From Gemmatimonadota bacterium (GTDB taxonomy: Bacteria > Gemmatimonadota > Gemmatimonadetes > Longimicrobiales > Gaopeijiaceae): a stretch of DNA of 64,000 bases. Below, one piece after another: positions 19,069 to 27,280 of the stretch. The position numbers were made by a program, and so were the translations under genes. The stretch lies in contig JAURER010000013.1 in the NCBI GenBank assembly GCA_030827315.1, forward strand, positions 1 through 64,000, written 5' to 3'. The notes beneath the pieces are model-generated. The model was not told the origin of the DNA, searched no databases, and saw only the letters and a program-made list of their open reading frames with translations. Within the stretch, counting starts at the first letter, position 1. The number at the start of each line of letters is the position of its first letter.

Positions 19069-19387
19069 GGAGATCGGCCGCCGGTGGCGCGAGGAGGGTC
19101 AAGGTGCCAACCTAACCGCCCCCGCCGGGGCGTAAAAGTGGCGTGGACGGTCGTATGCACCGGCGCCAATGTGGCAGTGGTTCCTGCGGTTCCGGCGTGA
19201 ATCGGGCCCCGCAACTCTGGCAAGGAACGTGCAACGATCGTAACCGACCGGCGTGTAACGTCGGCCGGGTCAGGCCGGACCGGTGGAAGTGCAGTGACAA
19301 CGGAAGAACGCCGGAGCGATCACTCTGTCAGAACTCGATCACGCCCCCGACCTCGACGAGGCGGTGGGCCAGGAGAATGAAGAACCG
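19069..19387. other. Intergenic region between metallo-hydrolase and lon starts
   Basis: About 320 bp that should hold the divergent promoters for the MBL gene and lon. I see no confident -35/-10 pair, CIRCE element or HrcA-like repeat. The lon frame stays open back to 19298, so GTG 19364 or an upstream start is possible. Two short cysteine-containing frames on opposite strands overlap one another and are not convincing genes. Confidence 0.4.
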
Positions 19388-22063
19388 ATGGCCGAGCGAT
19401 TCACGCTGCCGGTCCTGCCACTCCGGGACACCGTCGTGTACCCCGGCGTCGCAGTACCCATTTCTGCCGGGCGACCCGGAACCGTCGAAGCGGTACAAGA
19501 GGCCCTCGAAGGTGACAGGCGCCTCTTCGCCGTGGCGCAACGGGAGAATGTGGACGATCCCGCCCCCGAGTACCTGTACTCGGTAGGGACCGTCGTCCGA
19601 ATCATCCAGACGCACCGCGTGCGCGGCGGGGTGCAACTGCTGGTCCAGGGCGAGAGCCGTGCTCAGGCTCTCTCCTATCATCAGGAAGGGCAGGCGATGT
19701 TCAACGCCGTGTTGCTCGAGATGAAGACGCTCGAGCCCCGTGACGCGAACGATCCCGCCTTCCAGGCGCTCGACAGCGAGCTTCGTGACCGGGCGGCCGA
19801 ACTCGGAACGCGGCGCGGCGTTCCGGCGGAGGCGTTGAACCAGCTGATTCAGGGCGTCGACGAGCCCGGCGCCTTCGCCGATCTGGTGGCGTTCTACCTC
19901 GAGCTGGAAACCGCCGACAAGCAGAGGCTGCTCGAGCTGCTCGACGACGAGGAGCGCATGCGCGCGTGCCTGCTGTCGGTCGAGCGCGAGCTCGCGCGCA
20001 TCGACGCCCAGGAGGACATCCAGGCGAAGGTGCAGTCGGAGCTCGGCGAGCGTCAGCGCGAGATGCTGCTTCGGGAACAGCTCAAGGCCATCCAGAAGGA
20101 GCTCGGCGAGGAGGAGGAGCGCGACGACATCGAGGAGATCCGCAAGCGGATCGAGGCGCTCGAGCTCAACGACGAGCAGCGGTCGGAAGTCGACCGCGAA
20201 CTCCGCCGTCTCGAGCGGACGAGCCCGCAGTCCGCGGAGTACCAGGTCATCCGGACCTTCCTCGAATGGGTCACGGAACTGCCCTGGAGCGAGCGGAGCG
20301 AGGAGAAGATCGACCTGGCCCGGGCCGAGGAGATCCTCCACGAGGATCACTACGGGCTCGAGGACGTGAAGGACCGGGTTCTCGAGTTTCTCGCCGTCCG
20401 GAAGCTCGCCCTGGACCGCGCGGAGGCGGAAGCGAAAGGAAAGGCCGAGGTCGATACCGCCGACGAGGCCGTTACCGCCGGGCGTGGCCCGATCCTCCTG
20501 TTCGTCGGACCGCCCGGCGTGGGCAAGACGTCGATCGCGCAGTCGATCGCTCGCTCGCTGGGTCGCGAATACGTGAGGATCTCGCTGGGAGGCGCGCGCG
20601 ACGAGGCCGACATCCGGGGACATCGCCGCACGTACGTGGGCGCGATGCCGGGGCGGATCATCCAGGGGATGCGCCAGGCGAAGAGCAAGAACCCGGTCTT
20701 CCTCCTGGACGAGGTCGACAAGCTTGGCGTCTCGTACCAGGGCGATCCGAGCTCGGCCCTGCTCGAGGTGCTCGATCCGGCCCAGAATTCGACATTCGTC
20801 GACCACTATCTGGGCATTCCCTTCGACCTCTCCGAGGTCCTCTTCGTCGCGACGGCGAACTACCTCGACCGCATTCCAGGACCGCTCCTGGACCGCATGG
20901 AGCGCGTGGACTTCGCCGGCTACACGGAGGCGGAGAAGCTCGAGATCGTGAAGCGCTACCTCCTGCGCCGGCAGCGAAAGGAGAACAGCCTGAAGGAAGC
21001 CGAGTTCGGCGTGACCGACCGAGCGATCCTGGCACTCATCCAGAACTACACCCGAGAAGCGGGGGTGCGTCAGCTCGAACGCGAGGTGGGCAAGCTGGCG
21101 CGCAAGGTCGCGAGGCGAATCGCCGGCGGGAAGCTGAAGAAGGTACGGGCCGGACCCGACGAAGTGCGCGAGCTGCTGGGTCGCCCCCGGGTGCATCCGG
21201 AGCGGATGGCGGACGAAGACACGCTCGGTGTGGCGACCGGCATGTTCTACACCCCCATGGGGGGCGACATCATGTTCGTCGAAGCGAGCGTCATGCCGGG
21301 GGAGGGTGGCTTCGTCCTGACGGGTCAACTGGGCGACGTGATGAAGGAGTCAGGGCGGGCGGCGCTCTCGTTCGCGAAGGCGAACGCGGAACGTCTCCGC
21401 ATTCCCGAGGACTCCCTGCGGAACCGGGAGGTGCACATCCACGTTCCGGCCGGCGCCATCCCGAAGGACGGTCCGTCGGCGGGGATCACGATGGCGACCG
21501 CGCTGGTTTCGGCCGTATCAGGACGGAAGGTGCGGCGCGACGTGTCGATGACCGGGGAGCTTACACTGACCGGCCGAGTGCTGCCGATCGGCGGCGTGAA
21601 GGAGAAGGTGCTCGGCGCCGTTCGGGCCGGCATCCGCGAGATCATCCTGCCGATCGACAACGAGGCCGACATCGACGACATCCCCCAGGACGTGCGCGAC
21701 CACATGACGTTCCACCTGGCGGAAACCCTCGACGACGTGATCGACGTCGCGCTGGTGGGAGGCTCCAAGCGGGAGCGCGCGGGGGCGAAGACGGTGCCGC
21801 CGGCGGCCGAAGCGAAGGCTCCGGCCAGGAAGCGCTCCGGCGGAAAGACAGCCAAAACGAGGGCTCCCGCGAAAAAACCCACCGCGAAGACGGGGGTCTC
21901 GAGGAAGGACGCCTCGAAGAAGGACACCTCCGGCAAGGGTGGTCCGAAGAAGCGGCAGGCGAAGCAGCCGGCTTCGAAGAAGTCTGCCTCGAAGAAGTCT
22001 GCCTCGAAGAAGCCTGCCGGGAAGAAGCCCGTCGGGAAGAAGCGGCCCGCAAACAAGCGGTAG
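19388..22063 (+). CDS. lon: ATP-dependent Lon protease with a histone-H1-like C-terminal tail
   Basis: An 891-residue LonA. The N-terminal substrate-binding domain (LPVLPLRDTVVYPG) and a coiled coil (about 200-285) precede the AAA domain with Walker A GPPGVGKTS and Walker B VFLLDEVDK. The protease domain has the Ser-Lys dyad at S697 (KDGPSAG) and K738 (GGVKEK). After residue about 790 comes a roughly 100-residue Lys/Ala/Pro/Ser tail (KKSASKK, KKPAGKKPVGKK), which ordinary LonA lacks. It resembles bacterial histone-H1-like (Hc1/AlgP) tails and is likely to bind DNA or polyphosphate. ATG 19388 fits the family N terminus, with GTG 19364 as an alternative. It degrades damaged or regulatory proteins in the cytoplasm. 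Confidence 0.95.
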   Translation: MAERFTLPVLPLRDTVVYPGVAVPISAGRPGTVEAVQEALEGDRRLFAVAQRENVDDPAPEYLYSVGTVVRIIQTHRVRGGVQLLVQGESRAQALSYHQEGQAMFNAVLLEMKTLEPRDANDPAFQALDSELRDRAAELGTRRGVPAEALNQLIQGVDEPGAFADLVAFYLELETADKQRLLELLDDEERMRACLLSVERELARIDAQEDIQAKVQSELGERQREMLLREQLKAIQKELGEEEERDDIEEIRKRIEALELNDEQRSEVDRELRRLERTSPQSAEYQVIRTFLEWVTELPWSERSEEKIDLARAEEILHEDHYGLEDVKDRVLEFLAVRKLALDRAEAEAKGKAEVDTADEAVTAGRGPILLFVGPPGVGKTSIAQSIARSLGREYVRISLGGARDEADIRGHRRTYVGAMPGRIIQGMRQAKSKNPVFLLDEVDKLGVSYQGDPSSALLEVLDPAQNSTFVDHYLGIPFDLSEVLFVATANYLDRIPGPLLDRMERVDFAGYTEAEKLEIVKRYLLRRQRKENSLKEAEFGVTDRAILALIQNYTREAGVRQLEREVGKLARKVARRIAGGKLKKVRAGPDEVRELLGRPRVHPERMADEDTLGVATGMFYTPMGGDIMFVEASVMPGEGGFVLTGQLGDVMKESGRAALSFAKANAERLRIPEDSLRNREVHIHVPAGAIPKDGPSAGITMATALVSAVSGRKVRRDVSMTGELTLTGRVLPIGGVKEKVLGAVRAGIREIILPIDNEADIDDIPQDVRDHMTFHLAETLDDVIDVALVGGSKRERAGAKTVPPAAEAKAPARKRSGGKTAKTRAPAKKPTAKTGVSRKDASKKDTSGKGGPKKRQAKQPASKKSASKKSASKKPAGKKPVGKKRPANKR
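21974..22018 (+). repeat. Three 15-bp tandem repeats in the lon tail
   Basis: The unit TCGAAGAAGTCTGCC occurs at 21974-21988 and 21989-22003 and, with one base changed, at 22004-22018. Each encodes Ser-Lys-Lys-Ser/Pro-Ala. The repeats show that the basic tail grows and shrinks by slippage or unequal exchange in units of five residues. Confidence 0.85.
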
Positions 22064-22072
22064 CCTGCCGGT

Positions 22073-23134
22073 CTACTCCACGCGGATGGTTCCGGCCGGG
22101 CCTTCGCCCACTTCGCCGATCACGGCGAGGGCGGGGGTCCGGCCCTCGAGTCGCCGCAGGAGCGCGTCGAGCCTGTCCGGCGGCACGGCCATGAGCATCC
22201 CACCGGAGGTCTGCGCGTCCGCGAGCAGGACGTGCAGAATCGGGTCGACGGAATCCGCGAACGTCACTGCGCCGCGCACGTCCTCGAGGTTCCGTGTGCT
22301 GCCACCGGGCACGTGCCCGCCCTTCGCCAGCTCCACCGCGCCCTCGAGGAGCGGTACGTCGGCCGCACGCAGGGTCGCCGAGGCGCTCGACGCGCGGAGC
22401 ATGCTCCGGAGGTGTCCGAGGAGGCCGAAGCCCGTGACGTCCGTCGCGGCAGAGACACCGATCTCGGCCATGGCCGATGCGGGTGCCGCGTTGAGTGCGG
22501 TCATGACGGCGACGGCGCGCTCGATCTCCGTATCCGTGGCGTCCCCGCGCTTGAGCGCCGTCGCGATCACCCCGGATCCCAGCGGCTTGGTGAGCACCAG
22601 GCGGTCGCCCGGGCGCGCCCCGGCGTTGGTGACCATGTGCGCGGGGTGCACCTCGCCGACCACCACGAGTCCGTACTTGGGCTCGGCGTCGTCGATGGAA
22701 TGTCCGCCCAGTACCGGCATGCCGACGGAACGGGCGACGTCGTTCCCGCCGCGCAGGACCTCGTCGAGTATGCCGTGTGCGAGCAGCTTCCGGGGAAAGC
22801 CCACGAGGTTGAGCGCGAAGAGGGGTCGCGCGCCCATCGCGTAGACGTCGGACAGCGCGTTGGTGGCGGCGATGCGCCCGAAGTCGTAAGGGTCGTCGAC
22901 GATGGGCGTGAAGAAGTCTGCCGTCACGACCAGCGCGCGGTCGTCGGCGATGCGATAGACGGCCGCGTCGTCTCCCGTCAGGTGGCCGACGAGGACGTTC
23001 GGATCGTCTACCGGAACGATGTGACGCAGAACCTGCGTCAGCTCGGACATGCCGAGTTTACACGCTCAGCCGGCGCCGTGGCTGAGCTGGGACAGCCGGA
23101 TCTCCGGCCGTTGATCCCTGGGCTCGCTTGCCAT
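22073..23134 (-). CDS. selD: Selenide, water dikinase SelD, itself a selenocysteine (UGA) protein
   Basis: SelD makes selenophosphate from selenide and ATP. From ATG 23134, behind GAGGAG, the frame reads IRLSQLSHGAG, then TGA at 23066-23068, then ACKLG and the rest of a complete SelD, 353 residues counting the UGA. The TGA is residue 23 and falls where E. coli SelD has catalytic Cys17; Lys26 matches Lys20. Downstream marks are GDDAAVY, DFFTPIVDDPYDFGRIAATNA, GGHSIDD, TDVTGFGLLGH and DAQTSGG. A perfect 7-bp hairpin follows the UGA by 26 bases. Starting at ATG 23050 would drop both catalytic residues. Sec-containing SelD is known in other bacteria. The gene is convergent with lon. Confidence 0.93.
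23023..23039 (-). promoter_or_regulatory. bSECIS element of selD
   Basis: On the minus strand GACGCAG, loop GTT, CTGCGTC form a perfect 7-bp stem with a 3-nt loop whose first base is G. The loop starts 33 bases after the UGA codon, within the known bacterial SECIS range. SelB would bind it to decode the UGA. A nearer 5-bp hairpin (23042-23056, loop CATGT) lacks the G at the loop start and is the weaker candidate. Confidence 0.75.
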
Positions 23135-23137
23135 CGT

Positions 23138-23143
23138 CTCCTC
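23138..23143 (-). promoter_or_regulatory. selD: Ribosome binding site deciding the selD start
   Basis: GAGGAG on the minus strand lies 3 bases before ATG 23134. No comparable sequence precedes ATG 23050. It supports initiation upstream of the in-frame UGA, hence read-through as selenocysteine. Confidence 0.7.
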
Positions 23144-25287: not shown

Positions 25288-25935
25288 TCAGCCTCCGAGC
25301 GCGTCGAGTGCCGCGAGGATGTCCGCGTTCTCCGGGCGAATGCGGTAGTTCACCTCCGTCATCTTCCAGCGGACCACGCCGTTCGTATCGATCACGTAGG
25401 TGGTGGGATGCGGGATCGCGCGGCCGCGGGGGTCGTCCTGGTTGAACAGCCCATACCGGTTGATGACGGCGGCACCCGGGTCGGAGAGGAGCGTGTAGTC
25501 GAGCACGAGGCCGTCGTTCTCCTCCGCGACCCGATCGACCATCCGCTGGAGATCCGACGGATCATCGGAGGAGATGGCCGCGAGCTTCGTGGACGCCGCC
25601 TGCTTCTCGCTCAGCATTCCCTGCAGCTCCCCGAGCTGCTGCGCACAGTAGGGTCACCAGTGCCCGCGGTAGAAGACGAGGATCACGTTCTTCGCGCCAC
25701 GAAAGTCGGAGAGCGTCCATGTGGGACCGGCCAGTGAGGCCAGCGCGAAGTCGGGCGCCGGCTCCCCGACCCGAACGCGGTCCAGATCGACGCCGGGAAG
25801 GTCCGCACCATCGACCGGGCCGAGAACGACGACGTCGGGCCGCCGTGTGCCGGTGTCGCCGGCCGGCTCCGCTCCGGTGCCGCATGCGGCCAGCGCCGTC
25901 AGTACCAGCAAGCATGCCGCGCGTCCTCGGATCAT
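25288..25935 (-). CDS. Lipoprotein peroxiredoxin-like protein with in-frame UGA (selenocysteine)
   Basis: Read from ATG 25935, the gene gives a 215-residue protein. The signal peptide ends LTALAAC (lipid Cys18), followed by a thioredoxin-fold AhpC/TSA domain (GEPAPDFAL, VILVFYRGHW). UGA at 25654-25656 is residue 94, followed by P-Y-C97, so the active site is U-x-x-C where homologues have CPYC. Beyond the UGA the fold continues: QLGELQ, LAAISSDDPSDL, YGLFNQDDPRG, PHPTTYVIDTNGVVRW. A perfect hairpin lies 14 bases after the UGA. ATG 25935 overlaps the YpdA stop by 4 bases. It probably reduces peroxides or disulfides at the periplasmic face. A Cys-to-stop pseudogene is less likely because the frame continues intact for 121 residues. 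Confidence 0.9.
25623..25639 (-). promoter_or_regulatory. bSECIS element of the selenoperoxiredoxin
   Basis: On the minus strand GCAGCTC, loop GGG, GAGCTGC form a perfect 7-bp stem with a 3-nt loop starting with G. The stem begins 14 bases after the UGA and the loop 21 bases after it. The same stem length, loop length and leading G occur in selD, although the sequences differ and both lie inside coding sequence. Confidence 0.75.
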
Positions 25936-26936
25936 CCGCCAACTCCCGTCCGGCCCCGGGAGAGCCGGTCCGCCACGATCCGTGCGCCGTGCTCGCGGCC
26001 GTTCTCGATGAAGATCCTGTTCGCATTGTGCCCCGCGGCGATGACGCCCGCGATGTAGAGACCCGGCACGTCCGTTTCCATCGTCGAGGGCTCGTGGGCG
26101 GGAATCCCCGTCTCGTCGTCGATGGCCACACCCAGCGCCGCGAGCTGGGCGTGATCGGAGCGCCAGCCGGTCATCGCCACCACGAAGTCGTTCGCGATTT
26201 CGGTCGTGGCGCCGTCTTCCTCGGACCGCAGCACCACGGAGCCCGGACGGATCTCCGCCACCCGGTGCTTCCAGTACACGGGGATCTCTCCGCGCTCCAG
26301 CCGGTTCGTGATGTCGGGCACCACCCACGGCTTCACTCCACGGTCGATCGTGTCGAGGAAGTGCACCAGGGTCACACGCGCGCCGTTGCGGAACATCTCC
26401 AGGGCCGACTCGACGGCCGAGTTGCCGGCTCCGACCACGAGCACGTCCTGGTCGAAATACGGGTACGGTTCCCGGTAGTAGTGCCGGACCTTGGGCATCT
26501 CTTCCCCCGGAACGCCGAGGAAGTTCGGTGCCTGGAAGCCTCCGGTGGCGACGACGACGGCGGCCGCACCATATTCGCGCTGTGAGCCTTCGGCCTTCTC
26601 GGTGCGCACCGTGAAGCTGCCTTCCGCTCCCTCGATGGCGACGACCTTTTCGTACTGACGCACGTCGAGTTCCCAGTGGCTCACCACCCGCCGGTAATAG
26701 GCGAGCGCGTCCCGGCGCGTGGGCTTCTGGTCGGGAATGGTGAACGGGACGTCGCCGACCTCCAGCATGACCGCCGTGCTGAAGAAGGTCATGTAGTAGG
26801 GGTACGCCACGATGGAGCTCGTGACGCACCCCTTGTCGAAGAGCGCACAGGACAGCCCTGCCTGGCGGGCTGCCGCACCGACGGCGATCCCGCATGGTCC
26901 GGCGCCCACCACGATGAGGTCGAATCGATCGGTCAT
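25932..26936 (-). CDS. ypdA: YpdA family FAD-dependent (bacillithiol) disulfide reductase
   Basis: A 334-residue single-FAD flavoprotein. The FAD motif is GAGPCGIAVGAA with Cys15 in the GPCG position, the residue shown in YpdA/Bdr of Gram-positive bacteria to be needed for bacillithiol disulfide reduction. An NADPH motif GAGNSAVESAL lies near residue 180, GGFQAPNFLGVPGEEMPKVRHY between the domains, and a C-terminal TDVPGLYIAGVIAAGHNANRIFIENG. ATG 26936 begins the canonical N terminus. It is the first gene of a two-gene unit, and its stop overlaps the peroxiredoxin start as ATGA, so the reductase and the selenoprotein are co-translated. Bacillithiol synthesis genes are not in the window. Confidence 0.9.
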   Translation of the reverse strand: MTDRFDLIVVGAGPCGIAVGAAARQAGLSCALFDKGCVTSSIVAYPYYMTFFSTAVMLEVGDVPFTIPDQKPTRRDALAYYRRVVSHWELDVRQYEKVVAIEGAEGSFTVRTEKAEGSQREYGAAAVVVATGGFQAPNFLGVPGEEMPKVRHYYREPYPYFDQDVLVVGAGNSAVESALEMFRNGARVTLVHFLDTIDRGVKPWVVPDITNRLERGEIPVYWKHRVAEIRPGSVVLRSEEDGATTEIANDFVVAMTGWRSDHAQLAALGVAIDDETGIPAHEPSTMETDVPGLYIAGVIAAGHNANRIFIENGREHGARIVADRLSRGRTGVGG

Positions 26937-27019
26937 GTCCAGTGCGTTACCCTTTTCGCTCGATCTGTTCCTGTGCCGGCCGCCTTCCCCGCCGAGCATT
27001 CCCGCCGCATGATGACGCA

Positions 27020-27280
27020 ATGACATCCGCAGAATCCGAAGCACGCAAGGCGCTGAACCGGCTCCGTCGCGCCATGGAGAAGGCCGAGCGCGAAATGGAT
27101 GCGCTCCACGGGGCCCTGGTCCATGCCGAAGGGGACGATTTCCCGGCCGAAAGGTATGACGAAATCACGGCCGCCGTTCGCCGAGTCCTGGAATTCACGG
27201 ACGACGAGGGGGAGCGCCTTCGGGAGAAGATTCTGCATGCGGGCGGGCTCGAGCCGGGTCGTGTCCGAAGGAATTCCTGA
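27020..27280 (+). CDS. Small charged hypothetical protein
   Basis: An 86-residue protein predicted to be almost entirely helical, with heptad-like runs (ALNRLRRAMEKAERE, then a second helix AAVRRVLEFTDDEGERLREKI) suggesting a short coiled coil. No signal peptide, membrane segment or cysteines are present. It begins 83 bp upstream of and divergent from ypdA, and ends 42 bp before the D-aminoacylase-like gene on the same strand. I do not recognise a family. ATG 27020 is the first in-frame start that leaves the ypdA leader free. Confidence 0.6.
   Translation: MTSAESEARKALNRLRRAMEKAEREMDALHGALVHAEGDDFPAERYDEITAAVRRVLEFTDDEGERLREKILHAGGLEPGRVRRNS

Follow-up and report, generated by a model that had tools for sequence, protein, structure and literature searches.

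An in-frame UGA codon at the catalytic cysteine position of selD in a Gemmatimonadota genome is very probably read as selenocysteine

The selD gene (selenide, water dikinase) of a Gemmatimonadota bacterium contains an in-frame TGA at the position of the catalytic cysteine, and this UGA is very probably read as selenocysteine (Sec). From the sequence comparisons described below, we estimate a probability of about 97% that the codon is translated as Sec, that delivery involves SelB and a hairpin downstream of it, and that Sec23 is catalytic in SelD. An earlier note on this DNA had proposed that selD is itself a selenocysteine gene, and the proposal is supported by codon conservation, by the Sec-decoding machinery of the genome, and by the hairpin. 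The sequence itself shows the reading frame, the conserved codon, the decoding genes, and the hairpin. The gene is located in a stretch of 64,000 nucleotides that was analyzed as a whole (the window) and that belongs to a Gemmatimonadota MAG of 3.07 Mb in 99 contigs (98% complete, 1.73% contamination). Its closest relatives with a name are likewise Gemmatimonadota.

The selD reading frame and codon 23

The selD frame (22073–23134, minus strand) runs from the ATG at 23134 to the stop at 22073, and the TGA at 23068–23066 is its sole internal stop; if the UGA is Sec, the gene is complete and encodes 353 aa. The earlier note had placed this TGA (23066–23068) immediately before ACKLG, and the coordinates were correct. 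The readthrough product begins MASEPRDQRPEIRLSQLSHGAG-U-ACKLGMSEL and carries the motif GAG-U-ACK. In a profile search, it matched TIGR00476 with 392.8 bits (cut-off, 125) over positions 1–309 of the 311 in the profile, which agrees with the earlier description of a complete SelD across the TGA. The solved SelD 3u0o aligns with the product from residue 11 on, i.e., from SHGAG-C-GCK onward. In this alignment, U23 is opposite the Cys and K26 is opposite the Lys of that motif, so the TGA at residue 23 occupies the catalytic Cys position, as had been claimed. The next three residues, Ala24-Cys25-Lys26, are encoded by GCG TGT AAA (23057–23065, minus strand), and Lys26 corresponds to the catalytic Lys of SelD.

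A sequence resembling a ribosome-binding site, GAGGAG (23138–23143, minus strand), is present before the ATG at 23134 as previously described, but its spacer is only 3 nt, which is rather close and makes it a usable, not an ideal, site. The start at 23134 is better supported by the homologues because they align from residue 1. A standard gene caller is expected to report a shortened 325-aa ORF from the ATG at 23050 (22073–23050, minus strand), which lacks U23, C25, and K26; both the shortening of SelD by gene callers and the loss of the catalytic Lys had been correctly anticipated.

In 143 homologues from Gemmatimonadota and other phyla, codon 23 was TGA in 92, TGC in 40, TGT in 11, and any other codon in none, although these taxa are related, so that the TGA/Cys counts, like the hairpin counts given below, do not equal independent events. 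This restriction to TGA or Cys exceeds chance and is the signature of Sec/Cys exchange. The 92 TGA-bearing homologues span several phyla and independent assemblies, and the residues before the TGA are conserved (LSQLSHGAG). Residue 23 of the relatives is either UGA (92) or Cys (51), the outcome that the earlier note had expected of a Sec codon, and among close relatives this site always carries TGA or a Cys codon, with no unrelated stop. In the 59 nearest genomes, each close SelD orthologue had exactly one internal stop, TGA, except in G043 and G055, which belong to one genus; SelD had no internal stop in these two genomes, and a Cys codon was read in both (L048, L170). Every SelD orthologue matched in the genus of the source genome had TGA as its one internal stop.

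A SelD match was found in 222 of the 297 genomes sampled across the phylum, and among the matches listed, all but 15 showed one TGA in SelD, some of these 15 being N-terminally incomplete. The earlier note had left the frequency of the Sec form in this lineage unjudged. We found that the UGA form is the majority across Gemmatimonadota, which indicates that Sec-SelD is the predominant form in the phylum. Seven changes between Sec and Cys were needed in a quick tree of 109 SelD sequences, in which the Gemmatimonadota Cys forms L048 and L057/L098 fell within Sec clades. If this tree, which was made with a quick method and has some weak branches, is right, Cys would have replaced Sec at least twice within Gemmatimonadota. 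Probably, Sec-SelD was ancestral in the phylum and Cys took the place of Sec more than once afterwards.

Sec-decoding machinery and the downstream hairpin

The earlier note had pointed to selA, selB, and selC elsewhere in the genome as support for decoding, and all three were found, on contigs of the MAG other than that of selD; given the 1.73% contamination of the bin, this separation counts somewhat against the reading. The scores were 518.5 bits for selA, 316.6 bits for the first segment of selB (344.7 bits with the neighboring segment; 633-aa ORF), and 68.8 bits for selC, the tRNA-Sec (gathering score, 47); ARAGORN independently called selC as tRNA-SeC with the anticodon tca. The genome thus does not lack selB or selC, a lack that had been named as evidence against Sec. 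Furthermore, selB was above the cut-off in 12 of 12 genomes with UGA-SelD, and in 11 of 12 genomes with Cys-SelD (the twelfth had a partial match, probably because the contig begins within the gene). With G011 left out of the count, none of the five SelD-free genomes had it. G011, of the same genus as the source genome and 96% complete, had selB above the cut-off and no SelD match; this is most likely an assembly gap, and is otherwise a case of a Sec user without SelD. Because the Cys-SelD genomes retain selB, they still decode Sec, and SelD alone has swapped its residue. A family search of the source genome did not find selenouridine synthase (TIGR03167), so selenouridine offers no reason for SelD to be maintained in this genome.

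Two other explanations of the TGA were considered. The codon might be a true stop, a sequencing error, or a pseudogene mutation, with a working protein made from the ATG at 23050 without Sec, Cys25, and Lys26. An ATG-initiated ORF of 325 aa does exist there, and default annotation would call it. However, this short form has no catalytic Lys, 92 homologues from several phyla share the TGA in independent assemblies, the residues upstream of it show a conservation that an untranslated leader would lack, and the bin holds the whole Sec machinery; we regard this explanation as extremely improbable. We give equally little credence to reading of the UGA by a near-cognate tRNA (e.g., for Trp or Arg) or under a reassigned code. 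Such a reading would accommodate a selD frame that is open over its full length except for the TGA, but wherever a homologue lacks TGA at codon 23 it has Cys, never Trp, Arg, or another residue, and the tRNA with the UCA anticodon was identified as tRNA-Sec, not tRNA-Trp. Moreover, few TGA codons in the window join two coding-like stretches, which argues against a genome-wide reassignment.

For the preferred reading as Sec, a recoding signal was sought by a bSECIS search, as the earlier note had suggested, and a candidate was obtained. This bSECIS-like hairpin, UGACGCAG-GUU-CUGCGUCA (23022–23040, minus strand), has a stem of 8 bp and an energy of −10.8 kcal/mol, and its apical loop, of the GUN type, opens with G at a distance of 33 nt from the UGA. 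The published bSECIS limits are a loop of 3–9 nt, a stem of 4–16 bp, a G within the first two loop positions, a spacing of 16–37 nt, and an energy of ≤ −7.5 kcal/mol (PMC13188914), and the selD hairpin is within all of them. A smaller hairpin, CUCGG-CAUGU-CCGAG (23042–23056, minus strand), follows the UGA ahead of the main one and may simply result from codon conservation.

The main hairpin, with its spacing unchanged, was present in nearly all the UGA forms examined in the phylum, and it was enriched in UGA over Cys forms. In Gemmatimonadota, −7.5 kcal/mol was reached by 56 of 60 UGA forms vs. 6 of 15 Cys forms. When synonymous shuffles were made with each gene's own codons and the Cys homologues were taken from the same phylum, an energy of ≤ −7.5 kcal/mol together with a shuffle fraction of ≤ 0.1 was found in 39 of 60 UGA forms and in 0 of 15 Cys forms, and a rank test of the UGA vs. 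Cys hairpins gave p ∼1e-8. Shuffles based on the codon usage of the window for all taxa were discarded because they were unfair to low-GC Cys homologues. The G+C content was 0.71 in the Cys forms vs. 0.63 in the UGA forms; the Cys forms being the richer in G+C, low G+C does not explain their hairpin loss. These comparisons indicate that the presence of the hairpin follows the UGA and not the protein family: the UGA forms keep it, and in the Cys forms it has decayed. The pair counts carry less weight. In the main stem, 96.9% of the cells pair. Only 1 of 13 pairs had changed on both sides (A-U/G-U/G-C), and 6 of 500 shuffles attained the covariation score; the covariation is thin because a stem inside coding sequence that hardly varies leaves little room for it. 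A 63-nt segment folded alone was only mildly more stable than its shuffles (z = −1.69). Across the whole window, Rfam detected no SECIS and ARAGORN detected no tRNA. The only Rfam match in the window was a cobalamin riboswitch (RF00174; 671–799, plus strand; 72.8 bits).

Sec insertion could also be real while the hairpin at 23040–23022 merely reflects the conserved residues ELTQVLRH and SelB uses another signal. This would fit a stem that lies within conserved codons and shows slight covariation, as well as the shortened hairpin that persists in two Cys forms (L170, L173). However, in Cys homologues with similar amino acids the hairpin is mostly gone or reduced in length, and the UGA forms retain it beyond synonymous shuffles. 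We therefore consider this alternative very unlikely and prefer the hairpin as the predicted site of SelB.

Other Sec genes in the genome

Family searches identified at least five further Sec genes in the genome (FdhA, a CMD-like gene, and three Prx-like genes), with the UGA at the expected redox positions. These kinds of Sec gene are among the listed known prokaryotic selenoproteins (PMC13188914). One of them is in the window, 2.6 kb from selD: a Sec peroxiredoxin-like (AhpC/TSA) gene (25288–25935, minus strand) with a lipoprotein-like N-terminus and a TGA at 25656–25654 (FYRGHW-U-PYC). Exactly one TGA was present in this gene in 21 of 21 matched genomes, including the source genome, and in about ten of the 21 it was within a few kb of selD on the same contig. 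The gene is related to selD by theme, and SelD does not need it. Its start overlaps, as ATGA, the stop of a gene for a YpdA-family putative bacillithiol disulfide reductase (25932–27044, minus strand; TIGR04018, 410 bits), which suggests that the two are translationally coupled. A convergent gene for Lon protease (19364–22063, plus strand) adjoins selD, and this protease has a repetitive lysine/alanine/serine-rich C-terminal tail beyond its proteolytic domain.

The other Sec genes have in-frame TGA codons in formate dehydrogenase alpha (L129:1885–1887, G000:C41; SRA-U-HAPTVAGL), in a CMD/AhpD-like protein (L133:1600–1602, G000:C84; DCFY-U-VTHH, a CxxU motif), and in two Prx-type genes, L140 (1094–1096, G000:C82, plus strand; RTRG-U-TVQM) and L141 (G000:C66:5586–5981, minus strand; RTPG-U-TVQM). 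The two Prx-type genes share a hairpin, GCGUAC-CGUGAUCA-GUACGC, just downstream of the TGA, which is likely a shared bSECIS. In the window, nine TGA codons passed a crude codon-usage score, including those of selD and the peroxiredoxin-like gene; the other seven resemble antisense frames or the normal ends of genes.

Proposed mechanism and comparison with known systems

Based on these results, we infer that Sec is inserted at codon 23, that SelB uses the hairpin, and that Sec23 has a catalytic role. SelB on the hairpin just downstream would bring Sec-tRNA(Sec) to the UGA, and Sec23 would replace the catalytic Cys (Cys17 in E. coli) in the flexible N-terminal loop, beside Cys25 and Lys26. SelD would then make selenophosphate from selenide and ATP and supply it to SelA, which would make Sec for SelD itself and also for the formate dehydrogenase, the peroxiredoxins, and the AhpD/CMD-like protein of the same cell. 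It has long been known that SelD can be a selenoprotein that helps to make its own Sec. A wider proposal is that the use of Sec in Gemmatimonadota has been overlooked, that the ancestral SelD of the phylum was the Sec form, that selD is kept near the genes for the Sec peroxiredoxin-like lipoprotein and the YpdA-type reductase, and that UGA decoding may switch this redox module in response to selenium, because SelD would need its own product for its translation; we offer it tentatively and consider it unlikely as a whole.

Default gene calling drops the catalytic residues of SelD and shortens other selenoproteins in this lineage, so annotations of Gemmatimonadota likely miss part of their selenium metabolism. 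With UGA and Cys forms occurring naturally side by side, the phylum also allows a clean test of bSECIS requirements. A search of titles and the opening parts of abstracts found no paper treating Sec use in Gemmatimonadetes or Gemmatimonadota, and the phylum was unnamed in the main text of the selenoprotein surveys examined, supplements and subscription papers being outside the search. Sec-SelD as the usual form is perhaps new for Gemmatimonadota.

Sec-containing SelD itself is established in bacteria (PMC4561486; PMC1794560), as the earlier note had stated. A 2006 classification placed SelD with the most widely distributed selenoproteins of bacteria (PMC1794560), 19% of the SelD genes detected in a reference set of 2015 were Sec-SelD, and SelD ranks second in size among prokaryotic selenoprotein families (PMC13188914). 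The position of Sec in SelD/SPS2 is always the same (PMC4561486). Our selD shares with bacterial Sec-SelD/SPS2 the UGA position, the interchange of Sec and Cys, and the occurrence in genomes with SelA, SelB, and SelC (PMC1794560; PMC4561486), whereas its motif is U-A-C-K, not U-G-C-K, and two relatives have U-A-S-K. Compared with the bSECIS model (PMC13188914), the hairpin agrees in its G-first loop, 8-bp stem, and energy below the limit, whereas its spacing of 33 nt is near the long end of 16–37 nt and its binding by SelB is a prediction. The similarity to 3u0o, a Cys form, extends over the full length, with SHGAG-x-xCK aligned, and both 3u0o and E. coli SelD have Cys where the selD described here is predicted to have Sec.
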